NCBI GenBank assembly: GCA_039984955.1
Contig: JBDWTN010000005.1
Span: 682,001-746,000, forward strand
DNA length: 64,000 nucleotides
Direction: 5' to 3'
Source of the DNA: Marinobacter alexandrii
Lineage (GTDB): Bacteria; Bacteroidota; Bacteroidia; Cytophagales; Cyclobacteriaceae
Shown here: positions 6,924-33,613 of the stretch, in pieces
Layout of the letters: each line of letters begins with the position of its first letter
Position numbering within the stretch: the stretch's first letter is position 1
The notes under the pieces: generated by a model
Seen by the model: the letters and a program-made list of their open reading frames with translations, nothing else
Databases searched by the model: none
Told to the model about the DNA's origin: nothing
Program-made: the position numbers and the translations under genes

Positions 6924-6941
6924 CATCCTGCACTGTGCTGA
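6924..6941 (-). promoter_or_regulatory. Putative regulon operator, site A (galactose operon)
   Basis: Read toward the operon the site is TCAGCACAGTGCAGGATG. It matches the three other intergenic copies at 11624, 28511 and 33596. Its inner edge lies 127 bp before the permease start codon. The family-wide pattern is TCAGCATAGTRCAGGATG. Function as a binding site for the GntR-type regulator at 32526-33548 is inferred. Confidence 0.65.
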
Positions 6942-6998
6942 GTTTTATATTTAACCGATCAACTTCAAGATCTCCTTCATAAATTAAATTGATATATA

Positions 6999-7094
6999 TG
7001 CGGAGAATAAAAAAAATTCTCCGCAAAATACACTGATAATAGGTAGATCTTCTGCGGAGAATGACATACATTTGCTGCAAAAATTGCGGAGAAT
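6999..7094 (+). promoter_or_regulatory. Repeated TGCGGAGAAT boxes upstream of fic
   Basis: Four copies of a 10-bp box are seen. TGCGGAGAAT at 6999-7008 is followed by seven A and its exact inverted copy ATTCTCCGCA at 7016-7025. Direct copies follow at 7053-7062 and 7085-7094, 32 bp apart. The last copy runs into the fic ATG (7093). This is a likely operator array for autoregulation. The palindromic pair could also form an RNA hairpin. The candidate binder is the C-terminal winged-helix region of the Fic protein itself (inference). Confidence 0.7.
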
Positions 7095-8196
7095 GTGGAT
7101 ATATCAGCGAAATAATTGGCCAAATTTTAAATGGGACAATGGATTTGCTTCTGAAAAGCTAGCTACACTTCATAAAAAGCAAGGCATATTACTTGGTCAA
7201 ATGGAAGAATTGGGATTTACCTTAAAATCTGACGCTAGCATGCAGATGGTAACTCAGGATGTATTGAAGTCCAGTCTTATTGAGGGTGAGAACTTACCAA
7301 AAGACGAAGTTAGATCTTCTGTAGCCAGACGGATGGGATTGGAAATAGGTGGATTAGTGAACAGCAGCAGAGAGGTGGAAGGAGTGGTGGATATGATGCT
7401 TGATGCTACGATAAAATACAATGAAAGACTTACGAAAGATCGATTATTAGGATGGCATAATTCGCTTTTTCCAGCTGGAAAAAGCGGCATGCATTCCATA
7501 ACTGTGGGTCTGTGGAGAGATAATACTAGGAATGATCCCATGCAGGTAGTTTCAGGAGCTATAGGCCGGGAGGTCGTTCATTTCCAAGCACCGGATGCCG
7601 ATAGGCTTGAAGAGGAAATGCGACGATTTCTCATGTGGCTCAACGGTAGAACAAAGCTAGATCCATTGTTGAAAGCTGCCATAGCACATCTCTGGTTTGT
7701 GACATTACACCCTTTTGATGATGGAAATGGGCGCATAGCACGTGCTGTCACAGATATGTTATTGGCAAGATCGGATGATATGTCATTCAGATTTTATAGT
7801 ATGTCTTCAAGCATAGAAAAAGATAAAAAAAATTACTATGCTATACTGGAGAAAACTCAACGCGGAGATTTAGATGTGTCTGAATGGGTCATGTGGTTTT
7901 TGAACCGTTTAGAAGATGCATTCGGACAATCTCATATACTCCTAAATGATGTTCTGTTTCAAGCCAAGTTTTGGCATAACCCCGAACTTCTAGGAATTAA
8001 CAATCGCCAAAAGAATATGCTGAAAAAACTATTGGATGATTTTCAAGGAAAGCTTACTTCATCAAAGTGGGCTAAAATGACTAAAACTTCACAAGACACA
8101 GCGGGCAGGGATATCAACGATCTGATAAAGAAAGGAATCTTAAAAAAAGATGATTCTGGCGGAAGAAGCACAAGTTATTCATTGGTGAGAGATTGA
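7093..8196 (+). CDS. Fic-family protein (AMPylase type) with DUF4172-like N-terminus and C-terminal wHTH
   Basis: This 367-aa Fic protein starts with MWIYQRNNWPNFKWD, the typical opening of Fic proteins with the DUF4172 N-terminal domain. That supports ATG 7093 over an upstream TTG at 7072. The catalytic motif HPFDDGNGR is at 206-214. A class II inhibitory motif (SxxxEG: S60, E64, G65) is visible. The last 65 residues look like a winged helix (SSKWAKMTKTSQDTAGRDINDLIKKG). The family transfers AMP or similar groups to target proteins. It stands alone between the galactose operon and GH2 with its own repeat-rich promoter. The target cannot be read from sequence. Confidence 0.93.
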   Translation: MWIYQRNNWPNFKWDNGFASEKLATLHKKQGILLGQMEELGFTLKSDASMQMVTQDVLKSSLIEGENLPKDEVRSSVARRMGLEIGGLVNSSREVEGVVDMMLDATIKYNERLTKDRLLGWHNSLFPAGKSGMHSITVGLWRDNTRNDPMQVVSGAIGREVVHFQAPDADRLEEEMRRFLMWLNGRTKLDPLLKAAIAHLWFVTLHPFDDGNGRIARAVTDMLLARSDDMSFRFYSMSSSIEKDKKNYYAILEKTQRGDLDVSEWVMWFLNRLEDAFGQSHILLNDVLFQAKFWHNPELLGINNRQKNMLKKLLDDFQGKLTSSKWAKMTKTSQDTAGRDINDLIKKGILKKDDSGGRSTSYSLVRD

Positions 8197-8235
8197 AATA
8201 GATCTGTATACTCTTATTTTTTAAACCATTAAAAA

Positions 8236-8281
8236 GGCAGCTCCGCCTAGCAGAGCCGCCAATGCAAAGCCTTCGCTTTGC
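8236..8281. terminator. Two consecutive hairpins between convergent fic and GH2 genes
   Basis: Hairpin one is GGCAGCTC at 8236-8243 pairing with GAGCCGCC at 8253-8260 (one mismatch). Hairpin two is GCAAAGC-CTTC-GCTTTGC at 8264-8281, a perfect 7-bp stem. The location between two converging stop codons (8196 and 8286) fits a bidirectional terminator. Confidence 0.6.
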
Positions 8282-8285
8282 TTCC

Positions 8286-11504
<3,219 letters not shown>

Positions 11505-11623
11505 TTATATTGAAAGATCTACTATCAGAAAAATATCAATTGATGAGGTTTTCAGAATGAATTCACGTTTACTTATTTCAAATAAAATAATTGTAGAAAA
11601 ATACATCAGGAGATTAGCTTGAC

Positions 11624-11641
11624 TATCCTGCACTATGCTGA
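11624..11641 (-). promoter_or_regulatory. Putative regulon operator, site B (GH2 gene)
   Basis: In the direction of the GH2 gene the site reads TCAGCATAGTGCAGGATA. It lies in the 287-bp gap between the alpha/beta hydrolase stop and the GH2 start, 180 bp before ATG 11444. It matches sites A, C and D. It implies that GH2 has its own regulated promoter rather than only read-through from the PUL. The rest of this gap shows only a weak 6-bp stem (ATGAGT/ACTCAT, about 11673-11695). Confidence 0.65.
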
Positions 11642-11731: not shown

Positions 11732-12577
11732 CTATTCTTCACCCCTAATAATTTCTTTGGTCAACGAGTTGACTTCTCTTACCAAAAGAGGAAATGCAGG
11801 ATACATCATTTGTCCATGATTATTGCCATCAAGTTCGTGAATTTTTACTCTTTCATGTCCCACTATTTTCATCATACGCATCATGTAGGCATTTTCTTCA
11901 TACCTTCCTAACATTTCTAGGTCCCTATCACCAGTAATGATTAGCAAAGGAGCGGCATCTCCCCTGACGTGATATAGGGGTGCTAATTCATCAATAACAG
12001 GCTGATGACCAGGTATTCCCATTTGCTGACGAATCGTAAAATGCGTTATAGCATGTCCTGAAAATGGGATGAGTCCAGCTATTTGGTTGGCGTCAATTCC
12101 ATGATCATTGAGATAGTCTTTGTCTAATCCAACCATATACGTCAAATAACCACCCGCAGACATACCAGAAACAAAAATCAAGTTCTTATTACCACCATAA
12201 TTTTCAATGTTTTTGAATGCCCAAGCTGTTGCGGCTGCAGCATCTTTAATACACTCTATCCCCTCTACTTTCGGTGAAAGTCGATAATCTGCACCTATTA
12301 CTGCAAAACCACGATTCTTTAAATAGTTAGGAATGGATCTCTTCCCCCCTGTCAAGCCTCCACCATGGAACCAAATAATCGTAGGAAAATTTTTTGAATT
12401 AGTAGGGTAATAGAAATCAAAAACACACATTTTTTGCATGTAATCATTGTCATTCATGAGTGCTTCACTATAGTATGGAATAGCCTTCTCTGTTTTGTAA
12501 ATTTTCCTTTCACCCTGAGCTGTTGTGCTTTGTGTCAGTGCAGTCAGAATAACTATTGCTAAGAGGTTTGCTTTCAT
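11732..12577 (-). CDS. Secreted alpha/beta-hydrolase (esterase/lipase-like)
   Basis: A 281-aa protein with an N-terminal signal peptide (MKANLLAIVILTALTQSTTAQ). It has the oxyanion-hole motif FHGGGLTGG, the nucleophile elbow SGMSAGGY and a C-terminal HGQMM His, a complete Ser-Asp-His hydrolase set of the HGGG (BD-FAE/lipase) type. It is the last gene of the SusC-led operon, downstream of GH78. A plausible role is removal of acyl groups, for example acetyl esters, from the glycan. The natural ester is not deducible. Confidence 0.85.
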   Translation of the reverse strand: MKANLLAIVILTALTQSTTAQGERKIYKTEKAIPYYSEALMNDNDYMQKMCVFDFYYPTNSKNFPTIIWFHGGGLTGGKRSIPNYLKNRGFAVIGADYRLSPKVEGIECIKDAAAATAWAFKNIENYGGNKNLIFVSGMSAGGYLTYMVGLDKDYLNDHGIDANQIAGLIPFSGHAITHFTIRQQMGIPGHQPVIDELAPLYHVRGDAAPLLIITGDRDLEMLGRYEENAYMMRMMKIVGHERVKIHELDGNNHGQMMYPAFPLLVREVNSLTKEIIRGEE

Positions 12578-12605
12578 AATTACTATTTACTGAAAGAAGT
12601 CTTTC

Positions 12606-14888
12606 CTATTTTGAGATTGCTTCAATTTTGTTAGATCCAGCTGATAAACCTATTTCATAATACCCATTTTTATCGCTCAGATTTAGCGTTTTCCCATTAA
12701 GTGAAACATCCCTATACAATGAAGGGACATAACCATAAGCTTTTGTACTTTCCGGAACTTCAATAGTCATTACAAACGATTCGTTTTCCGCAATTATATC
12801 TACCTTAATATCTCCTTTCACACTTGATACAACCGCTTTCACTTTTGTCAATCCTCCCAATTGTGGCTTTACCTGAAAAGTCTTATAACCAGGCTCTAGC
12901 GGATAAACTCCAGCCACTTTCTGCGAGAGTAGTGTCAAGCCTCCCCCACTCCAAGCATGGTTGGTTGTGCCACCACCATATCCTTCCTTTCCTATGCCCC
13001 AACCTTCCCAAAGGGTTGTGATTGTTGGATGATTGACCATTTTCCCAAATCGCTGCTTCATTCGCTTTAAAGCAAACTCGGGATAGCTCATGATAAAAAG
13101 CGACTCCAGGATGTACTTTTCCATATAAGGACTTGCATGCATTTGTGCTTGAAATACCTGATAGATTGATTCGTATTTATCAATATCTGCCAACCCAGCC
13201 ACAACCGCCAATCCTTGAGAACGATCATCGGTAGGGCCTTGGTATCCCGAAGATCGATAGTAGTTTTCCTTCCAAAAAGCTTTATTAAAAGCTGATTTGA
13301 AGTTCTCAGCATGTAGTTGAAGACTATCTGCATCCGACCGGTATCCTAGCGCATTGGCCATTTTTTGCATACCAGAAAGTGCAAGCGCATATTGTGTATT
13401 TAGCAGTAGCACCATGTCTTTATTCGGGCCCCAATCTCCCCAAAACCAGCCACCTTGGCGCATCACCAGCGTTCCATCTTCTTTCAGCTTCCAAATAGAT
13501 AAGTATTTTTTGACGGGCTTGTAAACTTGCCTAATTGTTTCCAGATCACCTGTGTGCATATAGTAATTCCAAAATCCATATTCGCCAATACTCATCAGCA
13601 TTTGACCTGGGAGTTCTTTTGCCCAATTTCCAGCCGGTACCGGAGAGAAGAAAGTGCTATCTAATTTTTGCCAATTGACTAGTTCCAGCATGCCTTTACG
13701 CATGAGTGCATCCGCATCTCGATCCAAAGCATAGAATGCTTCTCCTCCTTCAAGCACTTCGTCACCCCACCATTGAGCTCGCTCTCGATCCGGACAATCC
13801 ATGTAGTTGTCTCGCATAGTGACATAAAGTGTTCTTGCTGCTTTCTTCCAAAGAAGATTATAAAACTCATCATCGCAATAGAAGCTACCTGCAAATTCTG
13901 TGTTGTAGCCCGATTCACGATATTTCAAATCCAACACTTTCACCTCCTCAGGAATCACATAGTACACCTTGTGTCCATTGATCCACCCTGGTGATTCAAA
14001 TTCCTGAATTCCATCTTTGGTAAGATATTCAGCTCGCATATTGTATTCAGAGCCCCCTTTATAGTGATCCGTGAACATAACGATCCGTTTACCGGCAGGA
14101 GCGTCAACTTTAAGGTAAGGTGTGATTTGAGCGTTGTATGGCAAGTCAGCTGTAAGTGTATCGCCTTCTGAGATACTAACATACTCCTTCAGTCCAAAGT
14201 CTTTCCATTGGGGAACAATTCGCCTGATCAGTTTTCCCCACGGCTGGCATTCCCCTTTGCAGTAAGCTTTGGCTCTTGGCCATTGGTTGTCTTCAAAATT
14301 GGATAAATACCAGTTAGTAATGTCTTCTCGAGCATCAAATACAATATTAGATTCCGACAATCTCCAATTCGGATAAGGTGGCTCACTTTCATTCAAGAAT
14401 GCAGGATGAGGGATAGCTTTCCATGTGCTGTCTGTTTGTAGAAGTAATCCATCAGGATTCCAGATTTCTGCAATCAAGCCAGCCCTGCCCGAGTTTTTAT
14501 GTGAAAAACCCTCTTTACCGAAATGCCACATGAGGACAGCAAGGGTGTTTGTACCTTTCTTCAGGTACTTTGAAACATCCAGTTCATCGCTGTATGTATC
14601 ATTGGGGGTAGGTCCTCTTTTCAATTGACCTTCCCTCACTACCAATGAATCATTCAACCATAACCAGTATTTAGAATCAACAGCAATTCGTAGTATTTCC
14701 GAAGATGAAGGTTTCTCTACCTCAAACTCTTTCCGGTAGGCAGTCCAGGTATTGATGCTATCATGCTGATTGGAAGCTAATATCCACCAGGCTTTCCATT
14801 CTTCATCAAAGATCGTTTCTCGCGCATCTTCCTCCCCACAATTGAGGAAGAATAAAAACACCAACAGCAAAATCACATTCCCTTTCAT
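12606..14888 (-). CDS. GH78 alpha-L-rhamnosidase, lipoprotein
   Basis: A 760-aa protein that begins with a lipoprotein signal (LLVFLFFLNCGEEDAR). It carries N-terminal beta-sandwich domains, an (alpha/alpha)6 catalytic domain with DCPDRERAQWWGDE and TTLWEGWG, and the C-terminal beta domain preceded by NHAWSGGG and GVYPLEPGY. These are hallmarks of GH78 inverting rhamnosidases. The acidic residues after the lipid Cys fit surface or outer-membrane anchoring. It should release terminal L-rhamnose. Its start overlaps the stop of the upstream ORF (ATGA). Together with RhaT and the rhamnose catabolic genes it points to a rhamnose-bearing substrate. Confidence 0.93.
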   Translation of the reverse strand: MKGNVILLLVFLFFLNCGEEDARETIFDEEWKAWWILASNQHDSINTWTAYRKEFEVEKPSSSEILRIAVDSKYWLWLNDSLVVREGQLKRGPTPNDTYSDELDVSKYLKKGTNTLAVLMWHFGKEGFSHKNSGRAGLIAEIWNPDGLLLQTDSTWKAIPHPAFLNESEPPYPNWRLSESNIVFDAREDITNWYLSNFEDNQWPRAKAYCKGECQPWGKLIRRIVPQWKDFGLKEYVSISEGDTLTADLPYNAQITPYLKVDAPAGKRIVMFTDHYKGGSEYNMRAEYLTKDGIQEFESPGWINGHKVYYVIPEEVKVLDLKYRESGYNTEFAGSFYCDDEFYNLLWKKAARTLYVTMRDNYMDCPDRERAQWWGDEVLEGGEAFYALDRDADALMRKGMLELVNWQKLDSTFFSPVPAGNWAKELPGQMLMSIGEYGFWNYYMHTGDLETIRQVYKPVKKYLSIWKLKEDGTLVMRQGGWFWGDWGPNKDMVLLLNTQYALALSGMQKMANALGYRSDADSLQLHAENFKSAFNKAFWKENYYRSSGYQGPTDDRSQGLAVVAGLADIDKYESIYQVFQAQMHASPYMEKYILESLFIMSYPEFALKRMKQRFGKMVNHPTITTLWEGWGIGKEGYGGGTTNHAWSGGGLTLLSQKVAGVYPLEPGYKTFQVKPQLGGLTKVKAVVSSVKGDIKVDIIAENESFVMTIEVPESTKAYGYVPSLYRDVSLNGKTLNLSDKNGYYEIGLSAGSNKIEAISK

Positions 14889-15910
14889 TTCATTACTGGT
14901 TTAATCCAGAAAGTATATCGATAACTCTTAGCTGGAATTCTAAAAGGCACATGGGGTCCCGCATCTCTATTCCATGTGTTATCCCCTCCTACGCCCATTT
15001 GTTTATAGTCAATATTCAGCGTGATGTTACTAAATTCAAGCTCTTCTATTCTTTTCGCTTCTTCAATATTTTCTAAAGTAAATGGCCAGGCACTTATACT
15101 TAGTGGATCTTGTTCTGCTTCAATTCGGATGCCATTGCCTTCACTATTGGTCAGCTCAGCCCACCACACTTCTGCTTTATTGCTGCTCTCCTGTGGACGG
15201 ACATAATAAGTATAATCATCTTTTACTGATTCAGTATAAAGTCCAAAGAACGATCCTGTTTTCTTGTCAGCATATGTTTCCAAGGGTCCTCTTCCAAACC
15301 ACTTCAGTTGATCAAGTTCCTCATCTAATTTAACCTGTAATCCCACTCGTGGAATGTTAGGAAGATTCGAAATGGTCGTGAGTTGATAATCTACTTTTAG
15401 CTTTCCTCCATCGATTTTGTATTTTGTAGTGATTTGGATACTATCATCCTCATCTTCATGGACTGAAACAACTTCACTATTGTGCTCATTGAAAGAGAAA
15501 TTCTTGAGTGATAGTTTATCGACCACCTCTTTCCAGTAACTCTGACGCAGAGGCATCCCTGAGGCAAAGTCATTATCTGTTGGTGCACGCCAAAAATTTG
15601 GCTTCAATGCTTTTTCTATTATTTCATAACCATTCAATTGATAACTGGATAGGTAGCCTGTGTTTTTACTAAAAACCATTCTTATGCTTCCATTAGTGAC
15701 CTCAATAGACGATTTTTCCAGACTGATAAAATGAATACTCAGACTTGCCTTTCTTTTTTTCCTAACAAAAGAATCAACAGGGACGCCTAGTGGGAGATTT
15801 GAAAGCTTCAACCCACATTCCTGCGCTAACCCACCAAATTTTCTTGCCCACTCATCTTTTGCATAGAGAATAACAGCTGCAAAAATGAATGAAATACTAC
15901 TTCTCATCAT
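14885..15910 (-). CDS. Orphan beta-galactosidase small-chain domain; probable GH2 remnant
   Basis: Residues from about 65 to 341 match the C-terminal domain of the full GH2 enzyme at 8286-11444, with shared blocks PNFWR-PTDND, NIPRVG, WFGRGP-E-Y, RPQES and YKQMGVGGD. The TIM barrel with both catalytic glutamates is absent. The first residues (SISFIFAAVILYA) resemble a short signal peptide, followed by about 45 residues I cannot place. The frame is open, the gap to the sulfatase is only 20 bp, and its stop overlaps the GH78 start. It is either a deletion product that is still translated, or a stand-alone sugar-binding or LacM-like subunit. I favour the remnant. Confidence 0.75.
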   Translation of the reverse strand: MMRSSISFIFAAVILYAKDEWARKFGGLAQECGLKLSNLPLGVPVDSFVRKKRKASLSIHFISLEKSSIEVTNGSIRMVFSKNTGYLSSYQLNGYEIIEKALKPNFWRAPTDNDFASGMPLRQSYWKEVVDKLSLKNFSFNEHNSEVVSVHEDEDDSIQITTKYKIDGGKLKVDYQLTTISNLPNIPRVGLQVKLDEELDQLKWFGRGPLETYADKKTGSFFGLYTESVKDDYTYYVRPQESSNKAEVWWAELTNSEGNGIRIEAEQDPLSISAWPFTLENIEEAKRIEELEFSNITLNIDYKQMGVGGDNTWNRDAGPHVPFRIPAKSYRYTFWIKPVMK

Positions 15911-15930
15911 TTGATCTTTGAAAGCACTAA

Positions 15931-23676: not shown

Positions 23677-23705
23677 GTTTATTCAGATTAAATAGCTATC
23701 AGATT

Positions 23706-25202
23706 TTACTCCCATTCTTCATTTTGTGTGTATCCAAACTGAAGGCGTTGATTGGTAGGTATGGCCAGAGTGGTTCGAATATTCGTGTACGCTTCAGGTG
23801 CTATTATTCCACCTTCTCCTAGAATACCCTTTTCTGTCTTTTGCACATCTCCATGCGCCATCATCACAGCTTCAGCTTGACCAGTGCGAACCAAATCAAA
23901 CCAGCGATGATTTTCAAAAGCCAGTTCTCTTCTTCTCTCATCTGCAATAATCTGAAGCAGATCTTCTACTGAAGAGGGGTTAACGGGACCTACTCCAGAT
24001 CTTAATCGGATAATATTTATTGTACCAATGGCTGTTTGATCTACAGCCTGAGAAGATCTTACACGACTCTCTGCTAACATGAGCAGTGCGTCAGCATATC
24101 TGAACATTGGCCAGTTTACATTGGTAATTCCAAGGTCAAGGAACTCGAAAGCATATTTTTTCATCCATGGTATGCTGTCATTTTCATCCACATAATAACC
24201 TATGTTATGTTCCAGACGATCATCGCCATCTTCATACAAATCAATAAGGCTTTGTGTAGGTTGGTTTTGCCCAGCTCTAGATTGTGCCAATTGACCAAAT
24301 GCTAATAAATCTCCCCCACTATTGTATGGGATGAATGAGGTTACAAAGTTTGACCCTTGTCCTAGATTAAAATCATATTGAATATCGAATATAGATTCCG
24401 AATGATTCTTATTATTTGGATCAAAAACATCAACATAGTTTGCCACTAATGAGTACCCTATTGTTTGTAACTCCTCTAAAGCACTAACCGCTTCTGGATA
24501 TTCCTGTCTTGCCATATGCATTTTAGCTTTTAGCATCAGAGCAGCTCCACGGGTAGCTCTTCCAGTATTTTCGGAATCCCATTCGTCTGGCAAAAACTCA
24601 ATAGCACTATCAATATTTGAAAAGAGCGTATCGTAAATTACTTCCCTATCTACACGCTGTGTAAATTCCGAAGTAAGTGCACCGTCTACATTGGATACCG
24701 TTGATAGAGGTAATGGAATATCACCATATAGTCTAACCAGATTAAAATAATACCAAGTCCTTAGGAAATAAACTTCTCCTTTTCTCTGATTCTTCAATGC
24801 AAAATCAGAGAATATTACATCATCAATATTTTCAAGAACAAATGTGCACCTGGTTACTCCATCGAATGCCTCGCTCCAATAATTTGCAATACTTGGATTA
24901 TCGGCATTCATTAAAAACTCATCTAGTTGTTCATTTAGAAAGCCTCCCCGATCATCTGGATTATATTGAAAACTACTGTTGTCGGATCTGTTTTCACCAA
25001 ACCTCCACTGCAAATTTTGATGTATGGCTCTATTCTTTACATAGGCTGCATTGACCGATCTTGTTACTTCGTTTTCATTTTTAAAGAAGTTGTCTACAGA
25101 GAAAGAGTTTTCCGGAGCTACATCCAGAAAGTCATCACAGCTACTCAATGCTAAGCAACTAATGATTGTTATGGTTAAAATTTTAATTTTCATATCGTTC
25201 AT
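23706..25202 (-). CDS. susD: SusD/RagB-family glycan-binding lipoprotein
   Basis: A 498-aa protein with lipobox SCLALSSCDDFLDVAPE, the canonical opening of SusD proteins, then TPR-like helical segments (LRTWYYFNLVRLYGDIPLPL) and the C-terminal RRRELAFENHRWFDLVRTG block. It is the outer-membrane lid partner of the SusC transporter. It begins 3 bp after SusC. The glycan bound cannot be read from the sequence; operon content suggests a sulfated rhamnose/galactose-containing polymer. A second ATG three codons in (25193) is an alternative start. Confidence 0.95.
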   Translation of the reverse strand: MNDMKIKILTITIISCLALSSCDDFLDVAPENSFSVDNFFKNENEVTRSVNAAYVKNRAIHQNLQWRFGENRSDNSSFQYNPDDRGGFLNEQLDEFLMNADNPSIANYWSEAFDGVTRCTFVLENIDDVIFSDFALKNQRKGEVYFLRTWYYFNLVRLYGDIPLPLSTVSNVDGALTSEFTQRVDREVIYDTLFSNIDSAIEFLPDEWDSENTGRATRGAALMLKAKMHMARQEYPEAVSALEELQTIGYSLVANYVDVFDPNNKNHSESIFDIQYDFNLGQGSNFVTSFIPYNSGGDLLAFGQLAQSRAGQNQPTQSLIDLYEDGDDRLEHNIGYYVDENDSIPWMKKYAFEFLDLGITNVNWPMFRYADALLMLAESRVRSSQAVDQTAIGTINIIRLRSGVGPVNPSSVEDLLQIIADERRRELAFENHRWFDLVRTGQAEAVMMAHGDVQKTEKGILGEGGIIAPEAYTNIRTTLAIPTNQRLQFGYTQNEEWE

Positions 25203-25205
25203 TGC

Positions 25206-28200
25206 TTAGTTAAATGTCACATTCAGACCTAGCGTATATGTTCTCGCGATGGGGAAACTCCCTTGAAATACATTTCGCACTAATGTATTATCCCCTACTC
25301 TTGCAGTTTCCGGATGACCTAATTCAAATTCCTTATAGATGAAGAAGGGGTTTTGAACACTGGAGTAAACCCTGAGTCTATTAAATACTTTGGTAGCCCA
25401 ATCATTCGGGCTAAAAGTGTAACCCAAGGTGATATTGGTCACAGCCAAAAAGTCATTGTCTTTGACCGAGTCTGAATTTGGTATCCTCCACTTCCCTGTA
25501 GCAGAGACTGTAGTAGGTATTGTCTTGGTAGAAGGATCATCGCCTGGTCTAAATCTGTTTTCAATTTCGGTCAGCAAATTGAAAACCCCATCAAGGTTCT
25601 CCGTGCTTTGCTTACTGATATCAAAAATTTGGCTCCCTACCTCCCCATTCATTAATATAGTTAGATCAAAATTTCGATAAGCAAAACGGTGAGTCATTCC
25701 GTAATAAAAATCTGGAAGAGGATTACCTAAGATCAAATAATCTTCCTCATCTTCTAGCTGACCATCTCCATCTCCATCTACGTATTTAATTGATCCCACT
25801 ACTGCTCCAGGATATTTTAGGACGTCTGGATCATCTATTTCTTCCTGAGTATATAGTCCGGTGATTTTCAATCCTCGATAATTCCCTATGGGCAATCCTG
25901 CTCTAGTAATCGTAAAAGATGAGCCATTTCCTGCCGCTCCTCTAAGCAACTGTTCGTTAGCCAACTTTTCTACCTCATTGACATTTCTGGTGAAGTTTAA
26001 ATTGATATCATATGAAAACCTACCCAGCTTGATCAGATCAGAGGTGTTTAGTTCTATCTCGATTCCTCTATTACTAAATTGACCTGCATTTCCAGGTATA
26101 CTTCCAAAGCCAGTTGTAACAGGCACAGGTATGTTCGTCAGGAAGTCGATGGTTCGCATGTTGTAGTAATCAAGCGAGAGATAAATTCTGTTTTCCAATA
26201 ATCCGATATCTAACCCAATATCAAACTCTTCAGTCTCTTCCCATATTACTTGATCATTGGGCAGTCCATTAACTACACTTCCCGGAGCAAGTCCTATTTC
26301 ACTACCACTACCAAATACGTAATTAACCTGACCTACATTTCCTTGAGCTGCAAAATTTCCTATTCCTGAATTCGAACCACTAAAACCATATGCTACCTCA
26401 ACCTTCACGTCACTGAATATACTTTTCAATCCACTCCAGAAGGATTCGTTAGAAATTCTCCAGGCTGCTGCTGCGGAAGGGAAAAAACCATACCTTTCTG
26501 ATTTTCCAAACTTGGAAGATCCATCTACACGACCAGATGCGGTAAAGTAATACCGATCGTCAAATACATAGTTAACGCGTCCTAAATAGGAAATCAAGCG
26601 GTTTTGGGTAGCTCCAGTTCCACCGGTAAAATTGTTAACGTTTTCGGTATTTACATTTCCTGAGGATACCGGCAATTGGAAACTCTCCTCGATAAGATTT
26701 CTGGCATTGATGCCTACACCTTCCGATCTTCGTTTCTCCATGGAGTACCCCAGAAGTACATTGACGTCATGTCGTCCAAACTTCTTATTGTAGTTGATTG
26801 TATTTTCCCAAACCCAATTTTTTCTACTCTCTTCTGAATATCCTGCTGTTGCTAAGCCGCTTCCTTCCGGATTCGGTTGAAGTGAACTTCCCGGTAATCT
26901 GGAAGGAGTGAATGTATTCACGTTCCGAGTATTGAAATTGTAACTGAAAGAAGTTTTAGCAGTCAAGCCTTCTATGATCTTTAGTTGCAAGTTTGTACCA
27001 GTAAGCATTGAGAGATTTTCTCGCTCATCTCTTATCCATTTCATTTTTGCCACCGGGCTTGCCACCCAAAAAGTTGTCAAATCTCCCAGTGCTGCCCCAT
27101 TAATGTTTCCACTTCTATCTCTCACTGGTGCAGAAGGATCAGCCCAATAGGTAGATAAAACTGAGCCGAATACACCAAAACCACTAGAAGCATTAGGATC
27201 GGTGCTACCACCAGTTCGCAGAGTATAACTGGGCGCCATATTGATACCGTATGTCAATCGATCAGAGATTTTTCCCTGAACCTTTGCTTGTGCACTATAT
27301 CTTTCGAATTCTGTATTTATGACAACACCTTCTTGCTGTAAGTGCCCTACAGAAAAGCTATAGTTTACATTCTCAGTTCCTCCACGCATATTTAAATTAT
27401 GCTCTTGGAAGATACCGTTTTGGGTTAGCTCATCAAACCAGTCGGTTCCTTCGCCATATTGTTCCGGATTTCTGAATTCTTCTGGAATATCTTCTTCGGT
27501 AGGTTCATTTCCTCCTGCTCTAATGTTATCTTCTATACGTTCTCTTTGAAACCTCGCTAACTGCGTTGCATTCATTACCTTCGGTTTCTGATATTCTGGT
27601 ATATCCTGAAATCCAGCTCGACTGCTGAGAGACACTATAGGCTTACCTTTTTTACCTCCTTTTGTCGTAATAATGACTACACCATTAGCCGCTCGAGAAC
27701 CATAAATAGCCTTTGCGGAAACATCTTTTAATACACTGATCGATTCGATATCGCTGGTTGATAACCAGTTAAGATTGAAGTTATCTCCACCTCCACCAAT
27801 GTTTCCGATTGGAAAACCATCAATTACATAAAGTGGATTGTTATTATTTGCAGATCCTACTCCTCTTATTGTCACAGTAACTCCCCCTCCTGGTTGTCCT
27901 GATTGTCTGGTTTGTACACCTGCCGAAAGTCCTTTAAGTGCCTGGTCAAAAGACGCAACAGGTAACTCTTCAATCTGCCTACTGTCAATTTTCGTGACAG
28001 CTCCTATTAAATCAGCCTTCCTCTGCTGACCATATCCTACAACCACAACTTCATTGAGTGCTTGTAAGTCTTCCTGAAGGGAAATGTCAATGATGTTTCT
28101 ATTTTGAACAAGAACTTCAAGTGTCTCAAATCCCACATATGAAAACCTCAAGGTACCATCCGTATCTGAAGTCTCTATGCGATAATTACCATCGATATCT

Positions 28201-28367
28201 GTAACCGCTCCCTGTGTGGTATTTAATAGCCGGACTGTAACTCCTGGCAATACGTCCCCCGTGCTAGCATCGGTGACCTTACCATTTATTATGTTGCTTT
28301 GAACTGCAAATACATGCAATCCAAAGAGACAACCAATAAATACACCTATAAATAATCGTCTTTTCAT
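25206..28367 (-). CDS. susC: SusC/RagA-family TonB-dependent outer-membrane transporter
   Basis: A 1053-aa protein with signal peptide, then a carboxypeptidase-like beta domain (INGKVTDASTGDVLPGVTV), a TonB-box-like segment, the plug domain (PLYVIDGFPIGN, SIEVLKDVSAKAIYGSRA-like region) and a long beta-barrel ending in an aromatic-containing strand (YTLGLNVTFN). It imports oligosaccharides across the outer membrane with SusD. It is the first gene of the eight-gene minus-strand PUL operon. The 277-bp divergent region upstream carries operator site C. Confidence 0.96.
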   Translation of the reverse strand: MKRRLFIGVFIGCLFGLHVFAVQSNIINGKVTDASTGDVLPGVTVRLLNTTQGAVTDIDGNYRIETSDTDGTLRFSYVGFETLEVLVQNRNIIDISLQEDLQALNEVVVVGYGQQRKADLIGAVTKIDSRQIEELPVASFDQALKGLSAGVQTRQSGQPGGGVTVTIRGVGSANNNNPLYVIDGFPIGNIGGGGDNFNLNWLSTSDIESISVLKDVSAKAIYGSRAANGVVIITTKGGKKGKPIVSLSSRAGFQDIPEYQKPKVMNATQLARFQRERIEDNIRAGGNEPTEEDIPEEFRNPEQYGEGTDWFDELTQNGIFQEHNLNMRGGTENVNYSFSVGHLQQEGVVINTEFERYSAQAKVQGKISDRLTYGINMAPSYTLRTGGSTDPNASSGFGVFGSVLSTYWADPSAPVRDRSGNINGAALGDLTTFWVASPVAKMKWIRDERENLSMLTGTNLQLKIIEGLTAKTSFSYNFNTRNVNTFTPSRLPGSSLQPNPEGSGLATAGYSEESRKNWVWENTINYNKKFGRHDVNVLLGYSMEKRRSEGVGINARNLIEESFQLPVSSGNVNTENVNNFTGGTGATQNRLISYLGRVNYVFDDRYYFTASGRVDGSSKFGKSERYGFFPSAAAAWRISNESFWSGLKSIFSDVKVEVAYGFSGSNSGIGNFAAQGNVGQVNYVFGSGSEIGLAPGSVVNGLPNDQVIWEETEEFDIGLDIGLLENRIYLSLDYYNMRTIDFLTNIPVPVTTGFGSIPGNAGQFSNRGIEIELNTSDLIKLGRFSYDINLNFTRNVNEVEKLANEQLLRGAAGNGSSFTITRAGLPIGNYRGLKITGLYTQEEIDDPDVLKYPGAVVGSIKYVDGDGDGQLEDEEDYLILGNPLPDFYYGMTHRFAYRNFDLTILMNGEVGSQIFDISKQSTENLDGVFNLLTEIENRFRPGDDPSTKTIPTTVSATGKWRIPNSDSVKDNDFLAVTNITLGYTFSPNDWATKVFNRLRVYSSVQNPFFIYKEFELGHPETARVGDNTLVRNVFQGSFPIARTYTLGLNVTFN

Positions 28368-28510
28368 AGTTTTTCTTTAAGCGATGTTGCTCTTCATTAT
28401 TAGAATAGCAATAGGTTGATTAATAAGTTAGAAATTTCATAAAATGAGGTTCCAATGTCATCCGTAGATTATGAAATTTTCAGAAAATTAACAGTGGTCT
28501 CTTACCCATC

Positions 28511-28528
28511 CATCCTGTACTATGCTGT
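28511..28528 (-). promoter_or_regulatory. Putative regulon operator, site C (SusC / GH43-like divergent region)
   Basis: In the SusC direction the site reads ACAGCATAGTACAGGATG, 17 of 18 positions identical to site D. It lies 144 bp before the SusC start and 117 bp before the GH43-like start, so it could serve both divergent operons. The rest of the 277-bp gap shows no clear ORF or strong hairpin. Confidence 0.68.
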
Positions 28529-28644
28529 CATGTTTTGTTTTTATGCAATCGTTTTAAAACCAATCCGTTAAGCAGGTCACAACAGGATACTATCTCATTT
28601 TCAGTGAGCTAAATTTTCAATCCAGATCCAAAAAACAGCCCTTT

Positions 28645-30048
28645 ATGAGATTGAATTTTGCGGTAATCTTTCTTTATGTGATTATCAACTCTGCAATATC
28701 ACAAGTTGCCCAAATTAGCAATGTAACACCGAGAAGTGATGACTCTGGAAAAATAGTAGACGCCCATGATGGAAGAGTCATAAAGTTTGGTGAAAAGTTC
28801 TATTGGTACGGCACTCAATACAGTAATACTAATGGTTTTACAATAGCGAATAAGTATGTGGCCTACAGTTCTACAGATATGATGAACTGGAAACTGGAAG
28901 GTGACTTACTCAAAGACGCTCCTGAAGGAATTCACTACCGTCCTCATGTTATTTACAACAAGCAAACCAAGCAGTATGTACTATGGTATAACTGGTATCC
29001 AAAACTTTGGGACGGGCAGTTTGGTGTTGCAGTAAGTAAAACACCTGAAGGACCTTTTAAGATCGTAAATCCTGATACAAAAGTATCTAAGTCAGAAATT
29101 GGAGTGGGTGACTTGGGCCTTTTTGTAGATGAAGATAATATAGCATATATCTCATACAACAGTATTCAAAATCATCAATTGGTAGTAGAACGATTAAATT
29201 CAAGCTATACTAAATCTACTATGGAGACCAGCAACATTATTGCTGAGCACGTGGAGGCGGGATCTATGTTTAAGCGCGAGGGGTTGTATTATCTACTGAC
29301 TGATTATACCTGTTGCTTTTGTAATTACGGCTCTGGTGCCAGAGTGTACACAGCGAAAGATCCACTTGGCCCCTATAAGTTTTCTAGCAATATCAACCGG
29401 TTCCCTGGAAAGTATGCGCCAGAGCTTACCGACGGTATGAAAAACATCAATCTTACTTATCGGCTTAAGAAAGAAAACGGTCTGATAATAGAAAATATCA
29501 GTAATGCTCCAATTTCAACCGTACAAATTCAAGTATTTACTGGCAATCGTAATGGACTTTGTGGTGCAGTAGATTCAGCATGGGTACATCCCCCTATCAC
29601 CATACCGGAATTCTCCTTTTCTGCAAATGGTATTGAAGTTAACCCTACTAACAGAGTAATCAAGAAAATTGGTCTGAGAAACATTTTGACCTTCGAATTC
29701 GATTCGTTCAATGCACTTAACCTTGAGTTGAAAGTATCAAGCTATTCTTATGATCAACTATCATTACTTGAAGTAGAAATAAACAAAGGCCAGAGTAAAA
29801 TCATGGTATTTGAATCTGGCGAAGGTATTGGCAAACAACCGATCATCCCGGCACAACAATCGTATGTGATGGAACTGCCAACAAAGAATGGAATTCAATA
29901 TATCTGGATGGGTGATCTCTGGGGTTCAGCAAATGACAACATCAAAGGTCATGATTTTCAGTATTGGAGCGCTCCACTTCAATTTAATGAAGATGGTTCC
30001 ATTCAACGGATGCAATGGGTAGATGAGTGGGAAGTAGAACTAAAGTAA
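28645..30048 (+). CDS. GH43-like five-bladed beta-propeller hydrolase with an internal insertion
   Basis: A 467-aa protein with an N-terminal signal peptide (about 19 residues). The opening VDAHDGRVIKFGEKFYWYGT, with the Asp expected of the base, and later blades (YRPHVIYN, WYNWYP, GVGDLGLFVDEDNIAYI, EAGSMFKREGLYYLL) fit a GH43-type propeller. The closing part (YIWMGDLWGS, DFQYWSAPLQF, WVDEWEVEL) recalls exo-beta-1,3-galactanase-type GH43 (subfamily 24 like). Residues about 258-375 look like an inserted beta-sandwich before the final blade. The substrate is tentative. It is 2 bp from the isomerase gene, so it heads a catabolic operon. Confidence 0.72.
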   Translation: MRLNFAVIFLYVIINSAISQVAQISNVTPRSDDSGKIVDAHDGRVIKFGEKFYWYGTQYSNTNGFTIANKYVAYSSTDMMNWKLEGDLLKDAPEGIHYRPHVIYNKQTKQYVLWYNWYPKLWDGQFGVAVSKTPEGPFKIVNPDTKVSKSEIGVGDLGLFVDEDNIAYISYNSIQNHQLVVERLNSSYTKSTMETSNIIAEHVEAGSMFKREGLYYLLTDYTCCFCNYGSGARVYTAKDPLGPYKFSSNINRFPGKYAPELTDGMKNINLTYRLKKENGLIIENISNAPISTVQIQVFTGNRNGLCGAVDSAWVHPPITIPEFSFSANGIEVNPTNRVIKKIGLRNILTFEFDSFNALNLELKVSSYSYDQLSLLEVEINKGQSKIMVFESGEGIGKQPIIPAQQSYVMELPTKNGIQYIWMGDLWGSANDNIKGHDFQYWSAPLQFNEDGSIQRMQWVDEWEVELK

Positions 30049-30050
30049 GC

Positions 30051-31466
30051 ATGAAAACAAATATTGGTCTTTTCGCTATTGGTTTAGATACCTATTGGCT
30101 ACAATTTGACAGCTTGCTGGATCGATTGCTCGGCTATCACAAGCAAATCTCGGAACGAATCTCCAAAGAAGCCAACGTCACAGATGTGGGTATGGTGGAT
30201 AGCTCTGAAAGAGTAAAAAAAGCCATTGAAGCTTTTGATTCAAAAAAAATAGATCTACTCATCGTCAACATTTCTACATACGGTTTATCTCAAAATATAT
30301 TACCCATTGTACGGGATAGTAGAGCACCTACTCTTATCCTTAATCTTCAACCTACAGCTTCAATTGATTATGATTTCATCAATGGTCTTGGCGATAGAGG
30401 AAAAATGACTGGAGAATGGCTGGCTTACTGCCAGGCATGCGTAGCGCCTGAGGTTGGTGGCGTATTTTCAAAAGCTAATCTACCGATAAGACTCGTTTCC
30501 GGACACTTAGAGGATCCCGAGGTATGGACTGACATATCTGAATGGATACAAGCTGCGAAAACGGTCAAAACACTTAAGCAAAATAGAGTGGGAATATTGG
30601 GACATTATTATAATGGCATGCTTGACGTGTATAGCGATCTAGCGAGGTACTCAGCTGTACTGGGAAGCGAATTTCAAATCTTAGAATTCGGTGAATTAAA
30701 GGCTTTAAGTGAAAAGATTTCTAAAGAGGAAATAAACAAAAAAAGAGAAGAGTTTCAATCTGCTTTCAATATATCAAATGAGTGTTCTAACTATGAATTG
30801 GAGCGTGCAGCCACTACTTCCATTGCACTGGATAACTTAGTCAATGGATATAATCTTGATTCACTAGCCTACTATTATGAAGGAAAAGGTGATCCTGCAT
30901 ATGAAAATATTGTCACCTCACTCATTCCTGGTTTCACTTTGCTTACTGGCAATCATATCCCTGTAGCTGGCGAATATGAAATAAAGAATGTACACGCAAT
31001 GAAGATCATGGATGCACTCAATGCGGGCGGGTCTTTTGCTGAATTTTATGCAATGGATTTTAATGATGATGTGATCCTGCTGGGACATGATGGACCTGCT
31101 CATTTCGCGATAGCAGAAGGTAAAGTAGGTTTGGTACCTGTACCTGTTTATCATGGAAAACCAGGCAATGGGTTATCCATTCAAATGGAAGTCAGTCATG
31201 GAGCAGTGACCATTTTATCTGTTTGTGAATCAGGAGACGGAAAGCTTTTTCTTCTATGTGCTGAGGGTCGGTCTGTGGAGGGTCCTACACTACAAATTGG
31301 CAACACCAATAGTCGGTATAAATTTGAATTAAAACCAAAAGACTTTATCAATCAGTGGAGCAAAGCTGGTCCCTCTCATCACATGGCCATAGGTGTTGGT
31401 CATGTTGCTGGTCAAATAGAAAAGCTCGCTGATCTCTTAGGAATTGCCTTTATCAAAATCTGTTAA
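30051..31466 (+). CDS. L-arabinose/L-fucose isomerase-family protein
   Basis: 471 aa from ATG 30051; a longer frame would start inside the preceding gene. The N-terminal Rossmann-like domains (DLLIVNISTYGLSQNILP, HYYNGMLDVYSD) and the C-terminal segment with GHDGPAHFAI, EVSHGAVTI and SHHMAIGVGH resemble the AraA/FucI superfamily, which uses a divalent metal to convert aldoses to ketoses. It is cytoplasmic. It lies between a GH43-like enzyme and RhaT. A dedicated rhamnose isomerase is also encoded at 35819, so this one may act on a second deoxy- or pentose sugar (fucose, arabinose or L-galactose). The substrate is unresolved. Confidence 0.75.
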   Translation: MKTNIGLFAIGLDTYWLQFDSLLDRLLGYHKQISERISKEANVTDVGMVDSSERVKKAIEAFDSKKIDLLIVNISTYGLSQNILPIVRDSRAPTLILNLQPTASIDYDFINGLGDRGKMTGEWLAYCQACVAPEVGGVFSKANLPIRLVSGHLEDPEVWTDISEWIQAAKTVKTLKQNRVGILGHYYNGMLDVYSDLARYSAVLGSEFQILEFGELKALSEKISKEEINKKREEFQSAFNISNECSNYELERAATTSIALDNLVNGYNLDSLAYYYEGKGDPAYENIVTSLIPGFTLLTGNHIPVAGEYEIKNVHAMKIMDALNAGGSFAEFYAMDFNDDVILLGHDGPAHFAIAEGKVGLVPVPVYHGKPGNGLSIQMEVSHGAVTILSVCESGDGKLFLLCAEGRSVEGPTLQIGNTNSRYKFELKPKDFINQWSKAGPSHHMAIGVGHVAGQIEKLADLLGIAFIKIC

Positions 31467-31476
31467 TAACTAACTT

Positions 31477-32523
31477 ATGATCAGTTCCGCACTCGGAATT
31501 TTTTTCCATGCCCTAGGAGGATTTGCATCCGGTAGTTTTTATCTTCCATTAAAGAAAATAACCCAATGGAGCTGGGAGTCCGGATGGTTGGTTAATGGAT
31601 TTTTTGCCTGGATTATCATGCCTTGGTTCGTTGCTGTTCTTACTATTCCTGACCTTTTAGAGATACTGATTCAAGCGGAGGTAAATACTATTTTTTGGAC
31701 GTATTTCTTTGGCATACTGTGGGGAATAGGTGGACTCACTTTTGGATTAACCATGCGCTATCTTGGTATTGGGCTTGGGATGGCCATGGCACTAGGCCTT
31801 ACCGCTGCTTTCGGTACGCTCATCCCTCCTATTTATGATGGTTCATTCATAGATATAACCCAAAGCACGAATGGTCAAATAGTCTTGTTTGGAGTATTGG
31901 TTTCTTTCATTGGCATTTTCCTCTGCGGTAAGGCAGGTGTACTGAAAGAGCAACATTTGAGTGAAGATCAGAAGAAAGAAGGCATCAAAGAGTTCGATCT
32001 AAAGAAAGGACTCATAGTGGCTTTTTTTGCCGGTATCATGAGTTCTTGTTTCGCATTTGGTATTCAAGCCGGAGCTCCCCTTGCTGCTTCTGCCAGCATT
32101 GCCGGAACCAATGAGTTATGGGTCAATGGACCAATATTTATTGTAATACTTCTAGGTGGTGCTACTACCAACTTTGCTTGGAGTATTCTTCTCAACATCA
32201 AGAAAAAGTCATGGAAGGACTATAAGGATACTTCCAGTCCGCTGAAAATGAATTACCTATTCGCAGCTTTGGCCGGAATCACCTGGTATTTGCAATTCAT
32301 GTTCTATGGAATGGGTACGACCCAGATGGGAGAGCACGATTTTGCCAGCTGGTCCATTCATATGGCATTCATCATTGCCTTTAGTTCTATGTGGGGATTG
32401 ATCACTGGAGAATGGAAAGGAGTCAAACGAAAAGTGCTTGTCGTTTTAGGACTTGGAATTTTTATTTTAATCCTCAGTACGTTGATCATTGGAATGGCAG
32501 AGCAGATTGCCACTAGCGTGTAA
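31477..32523 (+). CDS. rhaT: L-rhamnose/proton symporter
   Basis: A 348-aa membrane protein with about ten hydrophobic segments. It begins MISSALGIFFHALGGFASGSF, and carries KKITQWSWESGWLVNGFFAW and WGIGGLTFGLTMRYLGIGLG, highly typical of RhaT. Length is the family norm. It sits 10 bp after the isomerase and is convergent with the GntR regulator, with only 2 bp between stops. It imports L-rhamnose released by GH78 into the cytoplasm for the enzymes at 33.7-38.4 kb. Confidence 0.94.
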   Translation: MISSALGIFFHALGGFASGSFYLPLKKITQWSWESGWLVNGFFAWIIMPWFVAVLTIPDLLEILIQAEVNTIFWTYFFGILWGIGGLTFGLTMRYLGIGLGMAMALGLTAAFGTLIPPIYDGSFIDITQSTNGQIVLFGVLVSFIGIFLCGKAGVLKEQHLSEDQKKEGIKEFDLKKGLIVAFFAGIMSSCFAFGIQAGAPLAASASIAGTNELWVNGPIFIVILLGGATTNFAWSILLNIKKKSWKDYKDTSSPLKMNYLFAALAGITWYLQFMFYGMGTTQMGEHDFASWSIHMAFIIAFSSMWGLITGEWKGVKRKVLVVLGLGIFILILSTLIIGMAEQIATSV

Positions 32524-32525
32524 AT

Positions 32526-33548
32526 CTAAAGCGAATTCCGCTCTATGAACACAAAGTCGTTTTTTTCCTGGATCAGTTTCTTTGACTTAATCATATTAGC
32601 AACTGCCTTACCCATCGCCTTAAAATCAGTCGTCATTACAGTGATCCCATTTTCAAGTATTTCCTTCAGTGGTGTTTCATTGTAAGAAATGATACCCACA
32701 TCATCTCCTGTTTTCAATCCTTTTTCACGGATTGCCTTAATGAGATTAATTAAGTCATTTTCATCAATCACAATAAACAGGTCGCCTTTATTAACCTCAT
32801 AATCTTCCTCAATATCATCCATCACTTGAGCTTCGAGGCTATTTTGTCTTACAAAGTCGTTAAATCCTAAAATAATCTCCTTTGGATATGGATAGACTTC
32901 ATTTACAGGAAAAACGAGATACACCTTTTTATATTTTTTCACATCATTTATACTTGATGTAAGAGCTTCATAAATATCCGTTCTAAAGTCCTGGTAGACA
33001 TTACCAAAGTTTCCCACTAGTTCAGGGATTTGCCTATCTAATATGATTAGTTCTGTATCAGGAATTTTCTTCAACGTACTTTTCACCCTTTCATCGATCA
33101 CGTGAAAATTTGGCATCACCACATAGTAGGAATACTCTTCAAGCTTCTTTGTAACCAAATCATCAAAAATCTCAGGGTCGCAATGATGAATATACAAATC
33201 CACATATGCGGTATCCCCTAAACCTCTCACAATGGAGTCATAGATCATTTTTTTGTACGGGCTTAGCTTATTAAAAATTAGGCATACATGGATCTTCGAA
33301 ACCAGGTCTGTATTGGCAATGAAATATCCTTTGCCCTTTACGCTGGTTATGAATTTCTTTTCTTTTAATTGTGAGTAGGCTTTTTCTACTGTATCACGAG
33401 AAAGCAAATAAGTTTCACTTATCGCATTGATAGACGGTATCTTGTCTCCAATATGTAATTGTTTTTTTTCTATTCCATTAATTACTGAATCGATGATTTG
33501 CTTGTATTTCGGAGTTCTTGACTCTGGATTGATACTAAATTCCCACAT
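32526..33548 (-). CDS. GntR-family transcriptional regulator with LacI-type sugar-binding domain
   Basis: 340 aa from ATG 33548 (MWEFSINPESRTPKYKQ). An upstream in-frame start would put operator site D inside the coding region and was rejected. The N-terminal winged helix is complete (GDKIPSINAISETYLLSRDTVEKAY, then LKEKKFITSVKGKGYFI). The remainder is a periplasmic-binding-protein-like effector domain (LIFNKLSPYKKMIYDSIV, VGIISYNETPLKEIL), as in Bacteroidota sugar regulators of the FucR type. It is divergent from the rhamnose operon with site D between them. I infer that it senses a rhamnose- or fucose-derived ligand and controls all four sites. Confidence 0.9.
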   Translation of the reverse strand: MWEFSINPESRTPKYKQIIDSVINGIEKKQLHIGDKIPSINAISETYLLSRDTVEKAYSQLKEKKFITSVKGKGYFIANTDLVSKIHVCLIFNKLSPYKKMIYDSIVRGLGDTAYVDLYIHHCDPEIFDDLVTKKLEEYSYYVVMPNFHVIDERVKSTLKKIPDTELIILDRQIPELVGNFGNVYQDFRTDIYEALTSSINDVKKYKKVYLVFPVNEVYPYPKEIILGFNDFVRQNSLEAQVMDDIEEDYEVNKGDLFIVIDENDLINLIKAIREKGLKTGDDVGIISYNETPLKEILENGITVMTTDFKAMGKAVANMIKSKKLIQEKNDFVFIERNSL

Positions 33549-33595
33549 AGTTAAGATTTCAACCACAAGTATATAACTTTTACAATGTGATTTGG

Positions 33596-33613
33596 TCAGC
33601 ATAGTACAGGATG
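33596..33613 (+). promoter_or_regulatory. Putative regulon operator, site D (gntR / rhamnose operon)
   Basis: The site reads TCAGCATAGTACAGGATG toward the rhamnose operon. It lies 53 bp before ATG 33666 and 48 bp before the divergent regulator start. Within it, CAGCAT and CAGGAT form a near direct repeat at a 10-bp period. A location between a regulator and its likely target operon is the classic operator position. Confidence 0.72.

Follow-up and report, generated by a model that had tools for sequence, protein, structure and literature searches.

AraR of Bacillus subtilis, which belongs to the AraR subfamily of the GntR family and binds a palindrome, is among the closest described counterparts of a regulator encoded in the DNA studied here: 64,000 nucleotides of Marinobacter alexandrii (Bacteroidota; Cytophagales; Cyclobacteriaceae; GenBank assembly GCA_039984955.1, contig JBDWTN010000005.1, positions 682,001 to 746,000), hereafter the window. 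In this window an 18-bp tandem-repeat box precedes five operons. From sequence comparison we consider it probable that the GntR/LacI-type protein encoded at 32526–33548, an L-rhamnose-pathway regulator that would act as a transcription activator, binds to this box. AraR has the same N-terminal GntR winged helix, C-terminal GalR/LacI-type sensor and role in the control of sugar and polysaccharide use; it is described, however, for Firmicutes and for arabinose, xylose and galactose genes (PMC4494728), and is named a repressor in PDB entries. The regulator described here, in contrast, belongs to Bacteroidota and to rhamnose genes, and its putative tandem-repeat box lies at a fixed spacing, in the geometry expected of an activator.

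Three other groups of systems resemble the present one in part. The L-rhamnose regulons described in 2013 have a similar target set under one regulator, and the motifs of the DeoR-type RhaR are direct repeats with a period of 10–11 bp; their regulators differ in being of the AraC, DeoR or LacI type, the Bacteroides RhaR being AraC-type, and the term GntR is absent from the main text (PMC3870299). MocR and other GntR proteins (GabR, TauR, FarR, NagQ, NanR) bind direct repeats and some are activators (PMC5320631, PMC4494728), but MocR proteins carry an aminotransferase-like sensor and their repeats lie two or three turns apart (PMC5320631), as opposed to a LacI-type sensor and a single turn here. 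SusR and the hybrid two-component systems (HTCS) of Bacteroides polysaccharide utilization loci (PULs) are likewise PUL regulators of Bacteroidota that use direct repeats; their repeats, unlike those in the window, are 21 bp (HTCS, mean) or 67–77 bp (SusR) apart, and their sensors are membrane-bound (PMC3878776). The regulator of the window would also differ from both in tying PULs to central catabolism. Full-text searches of open-access literature listed no title or abstract opening on a GntR-type rhamnose regulator or a box of this kind in Bacteroidota, and passages of PMC5507952 contain nothing on this regulator.

A tandem-repeat box in front of five operons

An earlier note on this DNA had proposed that one 18-bp motif, found in intergenic positions at 6924, 11624, 28511 and 33596, links four operons into a galactose/rhamnose regulon. 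All four 18-mers are present without mismatch, three on the minus and one on the plus strand, each pointing at its own genes. They were the only matches in a window search that allowed up to 3 mismatches; shuffled windows gave a mean of 0.54 matches, and 4 were reached in 0 of 100. The whole assembly (4,884,486 bases, 8 contigs) was covered by pattern searches. At up to 2 mismatches, CAGCAYAGTRCAGGAT matched five places in it: the four boxes, with 0 mismatches, and one place with 2, on another contig and within a predicted open reading frame (ORF). At up to 1 mismatch only the four boxes were left. The reversed pattern gave 4 matches at up to 2 mismatches and 0 at up to 1, so that matches beyond 1 mismatch are not credible alone; and because the pattern was derived from the same four sites, its genome count is not independent.

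An independent test was provided by a 46-nt model built from 38 sites of relatives, with the sites of the window and the sites at rhaEW of G037 and G039 excluded from training; 150 of 1713 first-look candidates in the genome were scored. The top five matches (E 0.003 to 0.46) lay in front of susC (28511), lacZ (11624) and rhaEW (33596), at 28573 on the plus strand, and in front of the NCS1-type permease gene (6924), while those ranked next (E 0.59 and 1.17) both fell outside these five places. Each E-value is weak singly; what carries weight is that all of the top five fall within a single 27-kb cluster in 4.9 Mb of genome. The four operons of the earlier note were therefore borne out, although its count fell short by one: it had missed the fifth site, a model match at 28573–28616 (+) whose box ends 54 bases before the operon of the GH43-like, isomerase-like and rhaT genes. 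Chance matching as the origin of the boxes was ruled out by the shuffles, the genome pattern counts and the relatives-only model. Four of the five boxes, and three of the original four, are intergenic with ORFs as called. The box at 33596, which does lie between the regulator gene and the rhamnose operon as described earlier, 5′ of rhaEW, is intergenic only if the regulator begins at the ATG at 33548; the longest form of the ORF (TTG at 33680) would span it. A second PUL of the window (GH16, GH3 and a Y_Y_Y/GerE regulator at 61096) had no match to the model.

A near-fixed distance from box to -7 element

The complete element consists of the 18-bp box, an unconserved spacer of 19 bp and the sigma-A -7 box TAnnTTTG. 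In an ungapped stack of 38 sites from relatives, the conserved columns are 1–18 and 38–45 (TAnnTTTG), with little conservation upstream or in columns 19–37. In 34 of 42 sites the best match to the -7 box begins exactly at column 38, and in 39 of 42 it begins at columns 37–39. To these we added a scan with the box alone (score >16) of 77 named regulator loci, from which L202, L219 and L237 had been removed because their genomes gave training sites. Since only the box was used, the choice of sites could not favour the -7 box. The scan returned 139 matches, against 7 in reversed sequence; among the 138 distinct sites, distributed over 69 of the 77 loci, the best -7 match lay at column 38 in 103 and at columns 37–39 in 108.

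The sigma-ABfr elements of Bacteroidota are TAnnTTTG at -7 and TTTG at -33, the latter not having been found in Flavobacterium johnsoniae either (PMC7366714), and in F. psychrophilum the -7 box occupies -12 to -5 (PMC9723704). Our sites have the -7 box, at columns 38–45, and lack the -33 element: TTTG falls within columns 9–22 in 2 of 138 sites, a scarcity that is partly by construction, the sites having been chosen for the box. By this alignment the box would span about -49 to -32, where the -33 element would otherwise lie, and transcription would start near 33646, 28622, 28478, 11591 and 6891 of the window. In other bacteria, class II activators bind at about -41. The near-constant distance between box and -7 element points to activation; the earlier note named no direction of control.

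The same regulator on the same box might instead be a repressor, covering the -33 region without sugar, blocking RNA polymerase and being released by the sugar. We regard this as unlikely. It would suit the overlap between box and promoter, a place from which repressors can act, and the naming of the GntR-LacI chimera AraR (PMC4494728) as a repressor in PDB entries, which speaks against an activator. Blocking, however, does not need the exact -7 spacing seen in 34/42 and 103/138 sites, and with the box replacing the -33 TTTG a bare promoter would presumably be weak. An RNA leader element was set aside: the box lies 5′ of the -7 box and, provided that the latter marks the promoter, is not transcribed.

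Within the box, the direct-repeat look of the core reported earlier was confirmed in the 138 sites, where periods 10 and 5, of 14 tried, reach z values of 4.3 and 4.2 in column self-similarity. A partial dyad is also present, centred on column 7 (z 3.1; 27 centres tried) and seen as GTACAGTAC in some sites.

The GntR/LacI-type regulator

The N-terminus of the regulator matches PF00392 (E 1.4e-11) and the profile of the AraR DNA-binding domain 4egy (E 2.2e-10). Its C-terminus matches PF13377 (Peripla_BP_3, E 1.1e-8), as in GalR/LacI-type sensors, and has weak structure-database matches to an ancestral LacI chain (9nt3, 0.0038) and to AraR (3tb6, 0.0065). GntR and Peripla_BP_3 are its only main Pfam domains, and with its GntR winged helix it belongs to none of the AraC, DeoR and LacI types known for rhamnose; it would act like a RhaR but is a member of another family. 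The recognition helix, RDTVEKAY, shows no variation in 17 aligned orthologues, in an alignment drawn from good matches.

Box and regulator in relatives of the order

Across 98 genomes of the order, our own included, CAGCAYAGTRCAGGAT had 44 matches at up to 1 mismatch, against 2 for the reversed control; several one-mismatch matches adjoin orthologues of the regulator, rhaEW or the NCS1 permease, and others lie inside ORFs. The regulator is present in 36 of the 98, rhaEW in 36 and both in 33 (Fisher p 3e-19, relatedness not corrected). From the sequences 5′ of rhaEW and NCS1 permease genes a matrix was derived, with the consensus CAGGAYAGTACAGGAY. With it, 28 of 37 rhaEW genes had an upstream site scoring >15, all in regulator-positive genomes and many of them having trained the matrix; for 24 of the 28 sites the distance to the projected start is 48 to 84 bases. 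The upstream region of rhaEW in G054 was too short to score and was excluded. Genomes negative for the regulator gave 0 of 3 rhaEW genes with a site (best scores 7.3 in G014, -1.6 in G078 and -3.9 in G093), a contrast loosened by the small number of such genes and by the weakness of scores of 15–17, because the best of 300 shuffles reached 15–20 for some genes. At E ≤0.02 the 46-nt model matched in 25 of 98 genomes, all of them regulator-positive; as 22 of the 25 had supplied training sites, the informative part is the absence of a match from all 62 regulator-negative genomes.

Proximity to the regulator gene was scored for 48 genes from 51 matches, the window's own, G052:C121 and G016:C34 being omitted and some loci being shortened by contig ends or by the limits of the region analysed. 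A composite site within 5 kb was found at score >14 in 32 of 48 and at >18 in 29 of 48, with training loci included and a background of about 4 per Mb for scores >14. At score 18 there were 107 matches near regulators and 0 in reversed sequence, training sites and overlapping loci being counted.

The wider phylum

A search of named genomes with the single regulator protein found no related loci; with the alignment of 17 orthologues as query, the best 80 of 580 loci were taken. These include Maribacter, Zobellia, Chryseobacterium, Leeuwenhoekiella, Lewinella, Cyclobacterium and Flavobacterium, genera which we take to represent Flavobacteriia, Saprospiria and Cytophagales. L202, which holds a training site, was removed, while L219 and L237, from training genomes, were retained. 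The composite matrix, trained on the window's order, scored >18 in 72 of these 79 loci, compared with 2 matches in the reversed sequences of all 80 (1.59 Mb), and 54 of the 79 have a composite site no more than 1 kb from the regulator gene. The order rhaEW-box-regulator is seen, for example, in Zobellia or Leeuwenhoekiella (L222, L258, L216).

Of 238 genomes sampled evenly across the phylum, 32 had the regulator, 45 rhaEW and 18 a model match. Sixteen of these 18 are regulator-positive, one of them (G069) being a training genome. For rhaEW itself we compared 20 of the 26 rhaEW genomes with a close orthologue of the regulator (G000, G069, G118, G122, G264 and G299 were not in the set) with all 20 rhaEW genes of the remaining 19 genomes, including G215 with its 32% regulator match. 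A composite site was found at 10 of 20 in the first set (that of G088 is a training site) and at 0 of 20 in the second, a comparison weakened by the low identity of 18 of the latter to the window rhaEW (43–47%), which may mean that they are not orthologues. The case rests on those tests that are free of training sites.

These counts bear on two further readings. The box could belong to another transcription factor encoded elsewhere, the GntR/LacI gene being a mere pathway neighbour. Regulator and rhaEW co-occur in 33 genomes of the order anyway, so that a link of the box to the regulator could be indirect; 16 of the 48 regulator genes lack a box within 5 kb; and in G027, G040 and G043 the boxed rhaEW is far from the regulator. 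We nevertheless hold this to be improbable. No rhaEW gene without a close regulator orthologue is boxed, either in the order (0/3) or in the phylum sample (0/20), and the composite site is mostly within 1 kb of the regulator gene. In G027, G040 and G043, moreover, the operon of the regulator (a 104-aa protein, a 929- to 938-aa protein, the regulator and an NCS1 permease) is itself preceded by a box; its first two genes are rhaM and GH106, by Pfam in G027 and by length and order in G040 and G043. A first-look idea that these operons were boxless was dropped when the model located the box further upstream.

That the box is a functionless similarity, due to chance or shared ancestry in duplicated promoter sequence, is scarcely credible to us. 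Cluster promoters can be copied along with genes, and two of 206 regulator-negative genomes of the phylum sample had one borderline model match each, although this is below the chance expectation at that E-value. Against it stand the confinement of conservation to the box and -7 element, with little in the spacer or upstream, and the scarcity of matches in reversed sequence (at score 18, none, with 107 in forward orientation; 2 in 1.59 Mb).

A proposed activator in place of the -33 contact

Comparative genomics thus supports the earlier suggestion that a PUL, a beta-galactosidase, the Leloir pathway and rhamnose catabolism form one regulon under the predicted control of the 32526–33548 protein. 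Five promoters of the window, and more than a hundred of relatives, carry the box at a near-fixed distance from the -7 element, and the box is associated with the regulator gene. In the mechanism that we propose, rhamnose or a catabolite would bind the LacI-type sensor domain, a dimer of the regulator would occupy the repeats at about -49 to -32, and the bound dimer would contact RNA polymerase, substituting for the -33 contact. Import, rhamnose breakdown, L-lactate oxidation and the PUL would be switched on jointly. The five operons probably use a rhamnose-containing glycan, and lacZ and the Leloir genes may have been drawn into the regulon here because this glycan probably also carries galactose.

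Several observations weigh against this activator reading. The partial dyad leaves an ordinary GntR operator possible, most GntR regulators binding inverted repeats. In 30 of the 138 box-only sites the best -7 match falls outside columns 37–39. Sites are missing where they might be expected: 7 of the 79 named loci have none, 10 of the 20 regulator-positive rhaEW genes of the phylum sample have none within 400 nt (in G222, G295 and G315 a model match lies 1–2 kb upstream), and six rhaEW genes in regulator-positive genomes of the order score none, two being second copies and one, in G024, showing a degenerate box at the right spacing. The two regulator-negative genomes with a borderline match, mentioned above, also belong on this side, though they are fewer than expected by chance. 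On the regulator tree, 14 changes are required to account for the label "box within 5 kb", compared with 13.8 in shuffles; this lack of clustering means that no single box-binding clade can be drawn, and together with the unboxed regulators it suggests that paralogues are mixed in. By eye, the recognition helices of boxed and unboxed regulators are not separable.

A wider proposition, on which we are evenly divided, is that a GntR/LacI chimera serves as a -33-replacing activator across much of Bacteroidota outside Bacteroidales. It would bind 5-/10-bp tandem repeats head to tail, with a set spacing to TAnnTTTG, and unite rhamnose catabolism, lactate oxidation and many unrelated PULs in one regulon, replacing PUL-specific control by HTCS or SusR. 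The composite element would amount to a base-exact promoter code for the use of rhamnose glycans in environmental Bacteroidota. Scanning for the box followed by 19 bp and TAnnTTTG predicts PULs and uncharacterised genes that may serve such glycans, among them cytochrome-c/3-keto-sugar hydrolase operons and PUL proteins without a Pfam family. As a GntR/LacI chimera likely to activate, the regulator would offer a natural system for activator action at -33 in Bacteroidota.

Chryseobacterium-type loci, including L227, L235, L245, L247 and L255, carry at rhaEW a box variant, CAGTATAGTACGGGAT, whose second repeat is CGGGAT. The recognition helix of the regulator is unchanged in the loci with this variant.

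Operons of the window

Features of the window are collected in Table 1. In the first operon the chain from the NCS1 permease through the two small ORFs, lldD, galK and galT to galM has ends that overlap, touch or are 3 bases apart, so that box 1 probably drives the Leloir genes. The eight genes from susC through the esterase form a single run with gaps of at most 30 bases. A rhamnose isomerase, a kinase and an aldolase/dehydrogenase stand under one motif, as rhaEW-rhaI-rhaK behind box 4, and do so in relatives too.

Table 1. Boxes, -7 boxes and genes, with positions in the window
Feature	Sequence	Positions	Strand	Remarks
Box 1	CAGCACAGTGCAGGATGC	6923..6940	-	5′ of NCS1-type permease...galM operon
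-7 box, promoter 1	TTAGTTTG	6897..6904	-	One base nearer the box than the usual spacing
Box 2	CAGCATAGTGCAGGATAG	11623..11640	-	5′ of lacZ
-7 box, promoter 2	TATTTTTC	11596..11603	-	
Box 3	CAGCATAGTACAGGATGG	28510..28527	-	5′ of susC-led PUL
-7 box, promoter 3	TAATTTTC	28483..28490	-	
Box 4	CAGCATAGTACAGGATGC	33597..33614	+	Between regulator and rhaEW
-7 box, promoter 4	TTACTTTG	33634..33641	+	
Box 5 (new)	CAGGTCACAACAGGATAC	28573..28590	+	5′ of GH43-like/isomerase/rhaT operon
-7 box, promoter 5	TAAATTTT	28610..28617	+	Exactly at column 38
NCS1-type permease		5370..6797	-	First gene of operon 1; orthologues boxed in several relatives
Two small ORFs, 58 and 97 aa		4907..5373	-	Join permease to lldD by overlapping or touching ends
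FMN-dependent L-lactate dehydrogenase-like gene (lldD)		3735..4907	-	
galK, galT, galM (Leloir genes)		451..3738	-	End of operon 1
GH2 beta-galactosidase (lacZ)		8286..11504	-	
PUL operon		11732..28367	-	susC, susD, 1543-aa protein with type IX secretion system (T9SS) tail, 559-aa protein, sulfatase, Bgal_small_N, GH78 rhamnosidase, esterase
GH43-like protein, arabinose/fucose-isomerase-like protein, L-rhamnose/proton symporter RhaT		28645..32523	+	
GntR/LacI-type regulator, proposed activator		32526..33548	-	GntR winged helix and Peripla_BP_3 sensor
rhaEW (bifunctional rhamnulose-1-phosphate aldolase/short-chain dehydrogenase), rhaI, rhaK-like kinase		33666..38402	+	

Two proteins of the PUL are candidates for new glycan-active enzymes. 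In the 1543-aa protein (19045–23676, -) only the T9SS-type tail was matched, and comparison with solved structures gave no match; homologues occur in the boxed PULs of L224, L232 and L267. The 559-aa protein (17359–19038, -) has no Pfam match and a single weak match among solved structures, to a glucuronoarabinoxylan xylanase. The arabinose/fucose-isomerase-like protein (30027–31466, +) scores 53.6 bits against the NCBIfam L-arabinose isomerase model, whose cut-off is 622. The NCS1-type permease (5370–6797, -) is in relatives often linked to rha genes and the regulator; a role in rhamnose or lactate rather than nucleobase uptake is possible.

Target genes in relatives

For a survey of targets, 72 of 135 model matches were selected, 70 of them with a locus. 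Behind the boxes we found rhaEW-rhaI-rhaK, the NCS1 permease, rhaM-GH106-regulator-permease, genes 20–28% like the window GH78, and lactate-utilisation genes with LUD domains (Pfam-checked for two). Others are susC-susD PULs or their neighbours with cytochrome-c-domain, 3-keto-disaccharide hydrolase, ThuA and AP_endonuc_2 proteins. Among the 79 named loci, rhaEW is present in 61, and an lldD more than 50% identical in 45, often beside rhaK. Genes for L-lactate fit a rhamnose regulon because RhaEW is an aldolase and L-lactaldehyde dehydrogenase (PMC3870299).

Homologues of the window PUL are boxed in three loci. In L224 the box is followed by homologues of susC, susD, the 1543-aa protein, GH78 and the sulfatase; in L232 the boxed homologues extend as far as GH78; and in L267 they extend as far as the 1543-aa protein, followed by a second box and lacZ. 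The core targets in relatives are L-rhamnose use, L-lactate oxidation and PULs, so that of the galactose/rhamnose regulon of the earlier note the rhamnose part is shared, while the galactose genes look like a local addition.

Boxed operons with cytochrome-c-domain, 3-keto-disaccharide hydrolase, ThuA and AP_endonuc_2 proteins were seen in L086, L088, L179, L187 and L196; under this regulator, they may process rhamnose glycosides by an oxidative (3-keto) route.

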